NCBI RefSeq assembly: GCF_963677875.1
Contig: NZ_OY782570.1
Location: forward strand, 124,001-188,000
Source: Thiomicrorhabdus sp.
GTDB lineage: Bacteria; Pseudomonadota; Gammaproteobacteria; Thiomicrospirales; Thiomicrospiraceae
DNA length: 64,000 nucleotides
Reading direction: 5' to 3'
In this document: in pieces, positions 19,898 to 35,790 of the stretch
How positions within the stretch are numbered: the stretch's first letter is position 1
Layout: every line of letters starts with the position of its first letter
The notes under the pieces: generated by a model
The model's input: the letters and a program-made list of their open reading frames with translations, nothing else
Database searches by the model: none
What the model was told of the DNA's origin: nothing
Made by a program: the position numbers and the translations under genes

Positions 19898-20998
19898 TTA
19901 AAAAGGGTCGGTCTGAATACTGTTGCCGAAATTGTTGCAACTGTGAGGGTTGAAGCTTAATTCGGCGTTAAAGCTTTCAATCCGTTCATCAATAAAGCGT
20001 AATTTTCCGGCAACGATATCGGATAATTTAAACGGGTAGGGTGGCGCCAGGCCCATGCTTCGATTCAGGGCATTCATCACTTGGGCGACGCGGCCCCATT
20101 CGTCGAACCAGCTGTCAAAATCGTTTTCTTTGGGCTCGTAAACGCTTAATCCGTAGCCGACGGCGGTTTCAAGCGTGTCGACGATGTGCAGATAATGTGC
20201 CCAGGTTTCCGCCCAGTCTTCATGCGGATGGCTTCCGGCGTATGGCGTGATGTAGCGACCGCGCCAATGGTGCTGTTTTCCGGAATCGTAGTAGTATTTT
20301 AGCGCCTGTTCGTAATTCTGCCGCTCGTCGCCGAATACTTCGCGAAATCGTTCCCGGCTGCTTTCGTTATGCATCAGCTTATCCCAGAAGTAGTGGCCGA
20401 TCTCGTGTCTGAAGTGACCAAGAAGCGTGCGATAGCGCTCTTTCATCTGTTCTTTCATCGCATGCAGAAACCCCTCGTCGGCTTCGGCGGCGTTGATGGT
20501 TATCAAGCCGTTATTGTGGCCAGTCAGAAGATGCTCGATGGCAACATTAGGATTGGAGCGCTGATCTTCCATAAAGTCAAAACACAGATTGTTATGTTCG
20601 TCGAAGCGGACCGTGGTAAAAAGCTGCAATTCCAGCAGGGTATGGAATAAACGCCGTTTGGCGTTTTCCAGTCTCTGCCAGCGAAAACGGTTGCGATCCA
20701 CCGTCTGATCCGGAATTGTACGCGTGGTGCGGCAGCTGATGCATTGACAGCTGCTGTCGGGGGCCTGTCTGCTCAGTGCCCAATTGCATTCGACCACCTG
20801 ATAACGATTTTCACAGAGTTTAAAGCTGATGGTTTCGGAGGAAGTGCTTGTGTCGGTATAGAATAAGCCGTCTAGTGCGATTTCTCCGCTCCACATAGTC
20901 TGGACGTCGGGGTCGTAACAGAGGTCACGGCCGCAGTTCGGGCAGAAAAGATCGTTAAAGAACACTTCCTGATCGCATTGACAAAAAAATCGTTTCAT
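19898..20998 (-). CDS. Putative zinc-binding metallopeptidase with N-terminal zinc ribbon
   Basis: A 366-residue protein of the 'putative zinc-binding metallopeptidase' family. A zinc ribbon is formed by C6/C8 and C19/C22 (FFCQCD...FCPNC) at the N-terminus. The peptidase motif HEIGH is at residues 198-202 (FRHEIGHYFWDKL), with a likely third ligand Glu in EDWAETWAHYLH about 55 residues later. It sits 78 bases downstream of the alpha-E gene and the ATP-grasp gene, a neighbourhood seen in many bacteria and predicted in the literature on ATP-grasp amidoligases to make and process a peptide-like product. Substrate unknown. Confidence 0.85.
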   Translation of the reverse strand: MKRFFCQCDQEVFFNDLFCPNCGRDLCYDPDVQTMWSGEIALDGLFYTDTSTSSETISFKLCENRYQVVECNWALSRQAPDSSCQCISCRTTRTIPDQTVDRNRFRWQRLENAKRRLFHTLLELQLFTTVRFDEHNNLCFDFMEDQRSNPNVAIEHLLTGHNNGLITINAAEADEGFLHAMKEQMKERYRTLLGHFRHEIGHYFWDKLMHNESSRERFREVFGDERQNYEQALKYYYDSGKQHHWRGRYITPYAGSHPHEDWAETWAHYLHIVDTLETAVGYGLSVYEPKENDFDSWFDEWGRVAQVMNALNRSMGLAPPYPFKLSDIVAGKLRFIDERIESFNAELSFNPHSCNNFGNSIQTDPF

Positions 20999-33566: not shown

Positions 33567-34095
33567 GGATTGCTTATGCTCTTGAGTTTAAAAGGTTTAA
33601 GGCTGAAAACGGCCGCAAATTTTAGCACACCGTAAAAAAAATCGAAATGTTACGGAAAAATGACTTGACAAGCCGGAAAGTGAATAACCTTAAAAATAAC
33701 TTGACATCAATGGAATTGTTTTTAATTTTAATTGTTAGAGTCAGGTGTTTTGATATTTATGTAAGTTGTTGAAAATAAAGTGTTAATCGATGTTTTTGAT
33801 CGAGTGTCAAAAAGTTTTTATTGACAGAAATCTTTTCCACAAAAGCTGTGGATAACTTTGTGTGTAATTTTCTAGAAACTCGCTTAAGTCCTTTAAACTA
33901 GCGAATAAATATTAAATTGCTTAAAAAATAATCAACCAGGTTTTTATTTCGTCGGGCGGTTCGTTTATAAATAAAAATTAAGGTTAATTTAAGAATAAAA
34001 AAAATCAATGACCATGAAGAGATGCGCTTAATTCTAAATGATAAAATGACCTGAAAAATTATAGAACACTTAATTAACGGGTATGGGTTTACATT
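33567..34095. other. AT-rich intergenic region upstream of fnr
   Basis: 529 AT-rich bases with no gene. It contains two possible -35 hexamers (TTGACA), an inverted repeat TTTTTGA / TCAAAAA at 33793-33813 that resembles but does not match an FNR site, and a pair of DnaA-box-like 9-mers at 33833-33855. It separates the kinase-Rieske gene from divergent fnr and so probably carries promoters for both. Confidence 0.6.
33833..33855. promoter_or_regulatory. Inverted pair of DnaA-box-like 9-mers
   Basis: TTTTCCACA at 33833-33841 (fits TTWTNCACA) faces TGTGGATAA at 33847-33855, the exact complement of the consensus TTATCCACA, five bases apart. They also form a 6-bp palindrome (TCCACA/TGTGGA). Not near dnaA or other origin genes. 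Confidence 0.4.
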
Positions 34096-34842
34096 ATGGC
34101 GGATATTAAAACAGCGTTTCATATAGGATGTGGGAACTGCGGTTTACAAAAAATTTGTTTTCCGACAGGGTTGATAAAATCGGATGTTGATCGTCTGGAT
34201 ACGATTGTCGATCGAAAACCTGCTCTGAAAAAAGGCCAGCATTTATATCAGGTTGGCGATAAGTTTCAATCTTTGTTTGCGATTCGTGCCGGAGTGGTAA
34301 AGCTCTATGAGATTACCGACAGCGGTGAAGAGGTTATTCATGGTTTTTATCTGCCGGGAGATGTTCTCGGCATGGATGGCGTTGAAAACAAAGAGCATCA
34401 GTTTAACGCCACCGCGCTCGATTCTTTAAGTGTTTGCAGCTTGCCTTTCGATCAGTTGAACGATCTCTCCCTTCAGGTTCCGAATCTACACAACCAGATT
34501 CTGAAAGTTATGAGTAAAGAGGCTAATGAAAGTCGGCTGCATACGGATTTGCTGATGAAAAAAAGTGCAGATCAGCGTATGGCTCAGTTTATTCTCGGCA
34601 TGTCGGAGCGCTACCGCGAAAGAGGTTATGTGTACGATGCCTTCCGATTGGCGATTTTGCATCGTGACGTTGCGCTTTACCTTGGTTTAACGCCAGAGAC
34701 TGTTTCGCGAATTCTTGCCAAAATGCATTCCGATGGGATCGCTTCCTGGAAAAAGAAAGAAGTGCAGATCCATGATCGAGAAGGCTTGATGGCGCTTGCC
34801 GGAATCTCGCTTGAGCAGATTGCTAAAAAGCAGAAAGCTTAG
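34096..34842 (+). CDS. fnr: FNR-type oxygen-sensing transcription regulator
   Basis: A 248-residue Crp/FNR regulator. The four [4Fe-4S] cysteines of FNR are present: C12-x2-C15-x5-C21 (GCGNCGLQKIC) and C114 (SLSVCSLPF), matching the E. coli spacing C20/C23/C29/C122. A cyclic-nucleotide-like sensory domain precedes a long dimer helix and a C-terminal helix-turn-helix whose recognition helix reads LTPETVSRILAKM, with the E--SR contacts that read TTGAT half-sites. It should sense low oxygen and switch anaerobic genes. A perfect FNR site lies just downstream at 34880. Confidence 0.95.
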   Translation: MADIKTAFHIGCGNCGLQKICFPTGLIKSDVDRLDTIVDRKPALKKGQHLYQVGDKFQSLFAIRAGVVKLYEITDSGEEVIHGFYLPGDVLGMDGVENKEHQFNATALDSLSVCSLPFDQLNDLSLQVPNLHNQILKVMSKEANESRLHTDLLMKKSADQRMAQFILGMSERYRERGYVYDAFRLAILHRDVALYLGLTPETVSRILAKMHSDGIASWKKKEVQIHDREGLMALAGISLEQIAKKQKA

Positions 34843-34879
34843 AGCGGCGGTTTATTTATAGATTGGTTTCGATGTTAAA

Positions 34880-34893
34880 TTGATCCTAATCAA
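34880..34893 (+). promoter_or_regulatory. Perfect FNR box (class II position)
   Basis: TTGATCCTAATCAA fits TTGAT-N4-ATCAA exactly. Its centre (34886.5) is 41.5 bases before a start site predicted from an extended -10 element TGG-TTAAAT at 34913-34921, the standard FNR-activated promoter geometry. Confidence 0.75.
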
Positions 34894-34927
34894 TAATTCG
34901 CGGGCACCCGCATGGTTAAATAGCAAC

Positions 34928-34998
34928 CATGAAATCGTTGAATGTAACGTTTTTCATAATGTAGCCCGCTTCCCCAGCTATTGAAGCTGGGGTCTTTT
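34928..34998 (+). ncRNA. Predicted FNR-activated small RNA
   Basis: Between the FNR-dependent promoter and an intrinsic terminator lies a transcript of about 70 bases, too short for an ordinary gene. The 5' part is unpaired and A/U-rich; a central CCCGCTTCCC stretch (34965-34974) runs into the terminator stem. This layout (FNR box, short RNA, hairpin with U-tail) is that of the enterobacterial FnrS small RNA, but homology is not claimed. An alternative is a leaderless 11-codon peptide starting at 34929 (MKSLNVTFFIM). The terminator also insulates pal from this transcript. Confidence 0.5.
34972..34998 (+). terminator. Terminator of the predicted FNR-controlled small RNA
   Basis: CCCCAGC-TATTGAA-GCTGGGG followed by TCTTTT. 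A strong GC stem with a slightly interrupted U-tail. Confidence 0.8.
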
Positions 34999-35172
34999 AC
35001 TTTTCTCTTTTTTTCTCTGAAGTTCATCTCTGTAACCCATTATTGCCTCTTTCTTATTGAAGGCTGTGGGAGCTTTTTCGGTATTTGGATCGCAATTTTT
35101 CCACATGGCACTACTTTTTTTGTGCGATTACGGTATATTATCCCTATCTGTAATTTTAAGCAGGAATTGGAT

Positions 35173-35790
35173 ATGTCTTTTAGCACTATTAAGAATTTGT
35201 TTCTTGTTGGCTTGATGGGGATGACTCTATCGGGTTGTAGTTCACTGTTCGACGGTATTTGGGATGTTGATAAATATGCCTACAACGAACCGAATGATCC
35301 TCGTCTCGTCGATAAAGAGTATCAAAGTGGTTCGGAATTGGCCTTGCGTTCTAAAGGCGACGATGGCTCCGATTCGACCGGTGCTATGGGCGCGGGCAAC
35401 GGTGATGGAGATGCTGGAGCAATGAGTGCAATTGAAGCAGAAAAAGCACAGCTTCTGGCCTCGATTCGAGGAAAGGTAATTCATTTTGACTTCGACCGTT
35501 CAGTGATTCCGCCACATGAATATCAGATCATTAAAAACAATGCCCGCTATATGGCGTTGGAGCCGAATGCACGAGTAACGATTGAAGGGAATTGTGACGA
35601 GCGCGGAACTCGAGAGTACAACTTGGCTCTGGGTGAGAGACGTGCGGGTGCCGTTAAGGACGCTTTGATTGACGAGGGTGTCGATGCCAACCGTATTACT
35701 CTGATCAGCTTTGGTGAAGATAAGCCGGTAAATGATGCTCACAATGAAGCTGCATGGGCAGAAAACCGTCGCGCGGAATTTGTTTACTAA
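35173..35790 (+). CDS. pal: Peptidoglycan-associated lipoprotein Pal
   Basis: A 205-residue outer-membrane lipoprotein. Signal and lipobox: LFLVGLMGMTLSGC with Cys at about residue 17. An Asp/Gly/Ser-rich linker leads to the OmpA/Pal peptidoglycan-binding domain (VIHFDFDRSVIP, IEGNCDERGTREYNLALGERRA, ISFGEDKP, ENRRAEFVY). The start at 35173 has AGGAA upstream; a longer in-frame start at 34981 would overlap the small RNA terminator and bury the signal peptide. tolQRAB, its usual neighbours, are absent. Confidence 0.93.
   Translation: MSFSTIKNLFLVGLMGMTLSGCSSLFDGIWDVDKYAYNEPNDPRLVDKEYQSGSELALRSKGDDGSDSTGAMGAGNGDGDAGAMSAIEAEKAQLLASIRGKVIHFDFDRSVIPPHEYQIIKNNARYMALEPNARVTIEGNCDERGTREYNLALGERRAGAVKDALIDEGVDANRITLISFGEDKPVNDAHNEAAWAENRRAEFVY

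Follow-up and report, generated by a model that had tools for sequence, protein, structure and literature searches.

A predicted FNR-activated small RNA gene beside fnr in Thiomicrorhabdus and related genera

The 64 000-nucleotide stretch of Thiomicrorhabdus sp. DNA analysed here (contig NZ_OY782570.1, positions 124 001–188 000; hereafter the window) carries, between the genes fnr and pal, an element that is very probably a gene for a small RNA activated by the regulator FNR. An earlier note on this DNA had read it as an FNR-controlled small RNA beside fnr, and that reading is largely upheld, as the promoter, the hairpins and the adjacency to fnr are kept in 30 genomes. From fnr to pal the order of elements is an FNR box TTGATCCTAATCAA (34880–34893), an extended −10 element TGg-TTAAAT (34913–34921, hexamer 34916–34921), a GC-rich hairpin (CCCCAGCT-N5-AGCTGGGG, 34972–34992) and then TCTTTT, all on the plus strand. 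The box is the perfect TTGAT-N4-ATCAA site that the note had described, and its centre, with the −10 hexamer set as −12 to −7, lies at −41.5, as stated there, which is the class II position; the extended −10 element and the hairpin with its U-tail were also confirmed. The predicted RNA (34929–34998, with a start at 34928 or 34929 read from the sequence) is about 70 nucleotides long and is matched by the covariance models described below. The promoter, structure, linker and position of the element are conserved and hfq is present in the genome; the expression of the RNA and its control by oxygen we infer from the sequence.

An FNR-type box lies upstream of the RNA at all 30 loci, with ten of the ten consensus letters in 17 and nine in 13, and the TG of the extended −10 element is kept in 29. 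The box centre falls at −41.5 at 27 loci and at −40.5 at three, a count for which the −10 hexamer was sought only within two bases of the class II place; a search of the 15 sequences from the genus with no distance limit placed it at −41.5 in 12 and at −40.5 in three. A class II FNR site before a −10 element, the feature expected in the sequence of an FNR-activated small RNA gene, was therefore found. The comparison of relatives that the note had proposed as a check came out in favour of its reading, with box, −10 element and hairpin recurring in 30 genomes of five genera, and, because these co-occur with both hairpins and the linker, we regard the locus as real beyond a chance box. FNR boxes with at most one mismatch occur at nine sites in the window (3.63 expected), and the whole genome (2.58 Mb) has 13 perfect boxes, compared with none for the reversed pattern. 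A palindrome, GCGGGCACCCGC, lies between the box and the −10 element in the window (34900–34911) and is absent from the other 14 aligned sequences of the genus.

The predicted RNA comprises a 5′ stem-loop (34929–34957), which the note had not described, a single-stranded linker AAUGUAGCCCGCUU (34958–34971) and a Rho-independent terminator hairpin with a U-run (34972–34998). The window RNA folds with an energy of −21.7 kcal/mol (z −3.2), and three of 200 shuffled sequences are equally stable. Between the two hairpins lies a near-invariant core, AUGUAGCCCGCUU. The linker is the best-conserved block in both the genus and the 30-sequence alignments, being invariant except for one C/T column in the 15 genus sequences and near-invariant across all 30, and is likely to be an antisense seed. 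When sequences are folded singly, most relatives share the arrangement of 5′ stem-loop, linker and terminator, and a few favour other folds. The 30-sequence alignment has 89.6% of its cells paired, and both sides have changed in 13 of 18 pairs (nine of 11 in the 5′ stem-loop and four of seven in the terminator), a number reached by nine of 500 shuffles; its covariation is 0.424 versus 0.194 for shuffled alignments (0/500 as high), and slid partners give no more than 0.099. In a genus alignment that was not fitted to the model 92.3% is paired and the covariation is 0.218 versus 0.151, with 0/500 shuffles reaching either value.

Several findings weigh against an FNR-activated small RNA gene. The 30-row alignment was fitted to the covariance model, which biases its structure measures in favour of the structure. 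On the unfitted genus alignment two of five measures are not above shuffles: the pairs changed on both sides number three (93/500 shuffles), all in the terminator and none in the 5′ helix, and the further pair types number 12 (282/500 shuffles). A perfect box alone proves little, because five of the ten perfect boxes inspected (of the 13 in the genome) fall within predicted open reading frames (ORFs). Moreover, fnr is present without the RNA in 16 of the 17 genus genomes that lack the RNA (one with a partial gene), in ten of 11 genomes of genus g18 and in the single genome of genus g22. Because so many genomes keep fnr without it, the RNA is dispensable and an accessory to FNR.

A search for TTTCATAATGTAGCCCG with at most one mismatch found it in 15 of the 32 genus genomes, in one exact copy apiece. 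A covariance model built from these 15 genus sequences (R1) has matches in 29 of the 62 genomes of the order, 14 of which lie outside its building set, and reading the interval after fnr gave one further copy, whose core has a one-base insertion. The total is 30 of 62 genomes, all in one family, a figure that a model of all 30 sequences (R2) recovers by construction, with 15/32, 4/4, 1/1, 4/4 and 6/9 genomes in five genera and 0/11 and 0/1 in two. The RNA measures about 65–97 nucleotides among these relatives. A scan of named contigs gave 19 matching stretches, in 16 of which fnr lies beside the RNA; of the named relatives scanned, Thiomicrorhabdus heinhorstiae HH1 is the nearest, with an Fnr that is 93% identical. 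The other three stretches (Chitinophaga, Dehalococcoidia and Bacillota) have no fnr match and boxes of 5–7/10 letters. Among 369 sampled genomes of the class, R1 and R2 gave four and six matches outside the family (seven distinct), with at most 7/10 box letters; read individually, all seven resemble ordinary terminators, so no convincing relative outside the family was found in this sample with either model. The best of the matches outside the family (L085 in genome G216, E 2e-4) has ATGTAGCGCTTACCC where the core would be and a terminator with no FNR box, and may be a chance match or a remote relative. Second weak matches in genomes G042 and G013 (E ∼0.02) lack the core and were taken as chance; the former has a 9/10 box, although its centre is only about 28 bases upstream of the match, and the latter a 6/10 box. 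A 3179-base contig of a metagenome-assembled genome labelled Lysobacterales (L104) carries fnr and a Sulfurivirga-type RNA and is possibly misbinned.

The gene upstream of the RNA in the window, fnr (34096–34842, plus strand), matches NCBIfam NF008365 (Fnr) with 229.4 bits (cut-off 228); its product matches the Pfam domains HTH_Crp_2 and cNMP_binding and has CxxCx5C cysteines at the N-terminus. The separate downstream gene pal (35173–35790, plus strand) matches TIGR02802 (Pal_lipo) with 135.8 bits (cut-off 125.35). In all 30 genomes fnr lies directly upstream of the RNA on the same strand, with 84–291 bases from its stop codon to the core. Downstream, 25 genomes have pal in the same orientation and in the other five it was not found within the stretch examined, from which we conclude that the RNA goes with fnr and not with pal; the note's claim that the RNA is independent of pal is supported. 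In genus g21 the RNA is present in all six genomes with fnr and absent in the three in which a search at E 1e-30 gave no match to fnr. When mapped on a tree of 59 Fnr rows (56 from the family and three others), the presence of the RNA requires at least five changes, versus about 20 for shuffled labels, which we read as an old gain followed by several losses, with the deep branches unsure. One genome without the RNA (locus L141, genome G040) has an 8/10 box downstream of fnr, which might be a remnant of the RNA locus.

Three explanations dispense with a small RNA gene. The short ORF that begins near the predicted +1 could be a leaderless micropeptide gene ending at the TAG inside AUGUAG, an alternative that the earlier note had offered. 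An AUG or GUG does stand at or a few bases past the predicted +1 in 30 of 30 sequences, although this holds partly by construction, as the first such codon there was taken as the transcript start for the frame test, and the ORF stops at the shared TAG in 12, including all four Sulfurivirga-type genomes. The frame stops elsewhere in the other 18, however, the strongest conservation lies beyond the stop, and the 5′ part retains its pairing; in the window RNA, the AUG at the 5′ end is base-paired to a CAU of the 5′ stem-loop. The gonococcal RNA discussed below also starts with AUG, and its translational fusion was inactive (PMC3032703, in the part consulted). A reading frame that is not kept while the structure is kept is what a non-coding RNA would show, and we consider a peptide gene very improbable.

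It is similarly hard to credit that the element is only the 3′ end of fnr, with the hairpin as the fnr terminator and the box as a repressor or chance site. By eye there is no other terminator between fnr and the hairpin, and perfect boxes do lie inside ORFs, as noted above; the terminator hairpin (34972–34998) may indeed also end the fnr messenger RNA (mRNA). But a terminator needs neither an invariant linker and a conserved 5′ hairpin nor a box and an extended −10 element at fixed spacing. Least probable of all is that the element serves pal as an FNR-controlled leader or attenuator: although 25 of the 30 genomes have pal next, in the same orientation, the terminator stands between it and the RNA, and five genomes have no pal in the stretch examined. 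An FNR-activated small RNA gene remains our preferred reading, and the principal alternative within it concerns the target.

The Rfam library contains a model of FnrS, the FNR-induced RNA to which the earlier note had compared the element. No Rfam family reached its gathering score in the window, and within 34840–35160 only SNORD111 appeared, at E 3.4; a 79-base query against 20 395 E. coli records gave no match at E 0.01. Neither comparison placed the RNA in a described family, and the FnrS parallel therefore stands as a likeness in kind and falls as sequence kinship. Gonococcal FnrS and meningococcal AniS are one RNA, and NarS belongs to Salmonella. According to the parts of the sources consulted, FnrS of E. 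coli is under FNR control (PMC8139620), its gene having an FNR site centred at −41.5, and a class II site was predicted for the gonococcal RNA, which is FNR-controlled and has a 5′ stem-loop, an unstructured middle, a Rho-independent terminator and an AUG start (PMC3032703). The same holds for the descriptions of AniS as an Hfq ligand, with FNR control given in a title cited there (PMC11912907), and of NarS as an FNR-dependent small RNA (PMC8139620).

The present RNA resembles FnrS of E. coli and the Enterobacteriaceae in its FNR-type site at the class II position of −41.5, FnrS being FNR-dependent, but differs in that it has no E. coli or Rfam match, measures about 65–97 nucleotides and is a neighbour of fnr in all 30 genomes. 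It shares with gonococcal FnrS the class II site, the 5′ stem-loop, the unstructured middle, the terminator and the AUG at the 5′ end, and differs from gonococcal FnrS/AniS, as these are described, in its linkage to fnr, which goes unmentioned for them in the consulted parts of PMC3032703 and PMC11912907. Like NarS it is a small RNA tied to FNR, here by a predicted promoter; unlike NarS it has a separate FNR-type promoter ahead of it. The RNA would thus work by a design like that of FnrS and the gonococcal RNA, and we file it as a member of neither; as predicted, it is a new RNA family, though of a known kind, the FNR-activated small RNAs. No report of it was found in the open-licence full-text literature searched, mostly at listing level. 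The FNR-controlled small RNAs in the literature examined, which was seen in part, are from enterobacteria and Neisseria (PMC3032703, PMC8139620, PMC11912907).

The locus would be a gene in its own right, encoding a small RNA that acts in trans. At low oxygen, iron–sulfur-loaded FNR would bind the box at −41.5 as a class II activator and bring RNA polymerase to the extended −10 element, giving a transcript of about 70 nucleotides from near 34928/34929 to the hairpin and U-run. The 5′ stem would protect the RNA end, the U-tailed terminator would probably load Hfq, and the exposed AUGUAGCCCGCUU block would base-pair near mRNA start codons and lower translation. The Rho-independent terminator with a U-tail and the hfq gene in the genome are the sequence features expected for an Hfq-dependent small RNA; Hfq dependence and repression are predicted on this footing. 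Among single targets fnr came out best, which would give a negative feedback loop.

That fnr and the RNA form a two-gene negative feedback module, in which the core represses FNR synthesis, is a tentative proposal. In the window, the candidate linker pairing site is the fnr start region TATGGGTTTACATTATG (34082–34098, plus strand), with a predicted duplex of −16.8 kcal/mol for a 17-base core. In several Thiomicrorhabdus genomes, and in one of genus g17, the linker complement GGGCTA stands right before the fnr start codon, and two Sulfurivirga-type genomes have a linker complement as AAGCGGGCT before the fnr start or as CGGGCTACAT in the first codons. Pairing between linker and fnr start is significant at p < 0.05 against shuffles in 14 of the 30 genomes with the RNA versus four of 27 RNA-less rows (one, L034, with a truncated fnr, leaving 26 valid), and the two groups differ with a Mann–Whitney p of 0.01 when relatedness is ignored. 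The strongest site along fnr is the start region in six of the 30 with the RNA (about 2.5 expected) and in none of the 26 without it. As a target of the core, fnr ranks fifth among 612 ortholog pairs drawn from two genomes (1.2 Mb sampled of the first and 0.8 Mb of the second); with 60 shuffled cores it never ranks as high. In smaller samples it ranked 14/358 and 3/369 singly and 2/267 among ortholog pairs, where the top pair looks by eye like a miscalled start within a gene; the set of 60 ORFs from the window in these samples does not have fnr among its called ORFs.

Against feedback on fnr, the window site scores −13.6 kcal/mol with a 16-base core, which is not significant (shuffle p 0.145), pairing has p of at least 0.3 in nine RNA-bearing genomes, and the single-genome ranks of fnr are only 40/1148 and 7/753. 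The pairing also peaks at +40 to +50, near the conserved cysteine codons, in both groups of genomes; GGGCTA at the cysteine-motif codons occurs in two of 30 genomes with the RNA and none of 26 without, giving no clear signal. It is an evenly balanced matter whether the RNA instead has other mRNA targets, in an FnrS-like metabolic remodelling, with the fnr complementarity incidental; this disputes the target only and not the small RNA itself. In the parts of the sources consulted, FnrS of E. coli represses more than 30 mRNAs (PMC8139620) and metabolic genes are proposed as targets of the gonococcal RNA (PMC3032703). Here, four ortholog pairs outscore fnr and fnr pairing is weak in the nine genomes mentioned. 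The sites of these four pairs lie, by eye, in coding sequence or in the end of the preceding gene, however, and may be conserved for other reasons, and the ranking covers 1.2 and 0.8 Mb of the two genomes. Counts of the 16-base linker complement with at most three mismatches in eight genomes, each including the RNA gene itself once, gave 127 versus 122 for the reversed pattern and hence no excess of long targets.

The members of the family are sulfur-oxidising bacteria by way of life, and an RNA family fixed beside fnr would extend post-transcriptional oxygen control to such bacteria, a further ecological group. If the feedback proposal is true, FNR itself would be under feedback from a small RNA, and fnr and the RNA would together determine how strong the response to low oxygen is, or how quickly it recovers, in bacteria living at oxic–anoxic interfaces. 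The locus also supplies a covariance model and a compact test case for small-RNA feedback on an oxygen sensor.

FNR-type boxes were also seen at other places. The window fnr has no such box in the 45 bases upstream of the gene; in some relatives (L023 and L025) boxes lie immediately before fnr, which suggests an additional, transcriptional autoregulation of fnr there. A second perfect FNR-type box in the window (20493–20506) is probably chance because it falls within a minus-strand ORF of 366 codons (19898–20998). At another locus (L002, 1501–1514) a perfect FNR box lies 156 bases upstream of a gene that, from its sequence, we take to resemble a Dps-type ferritin.
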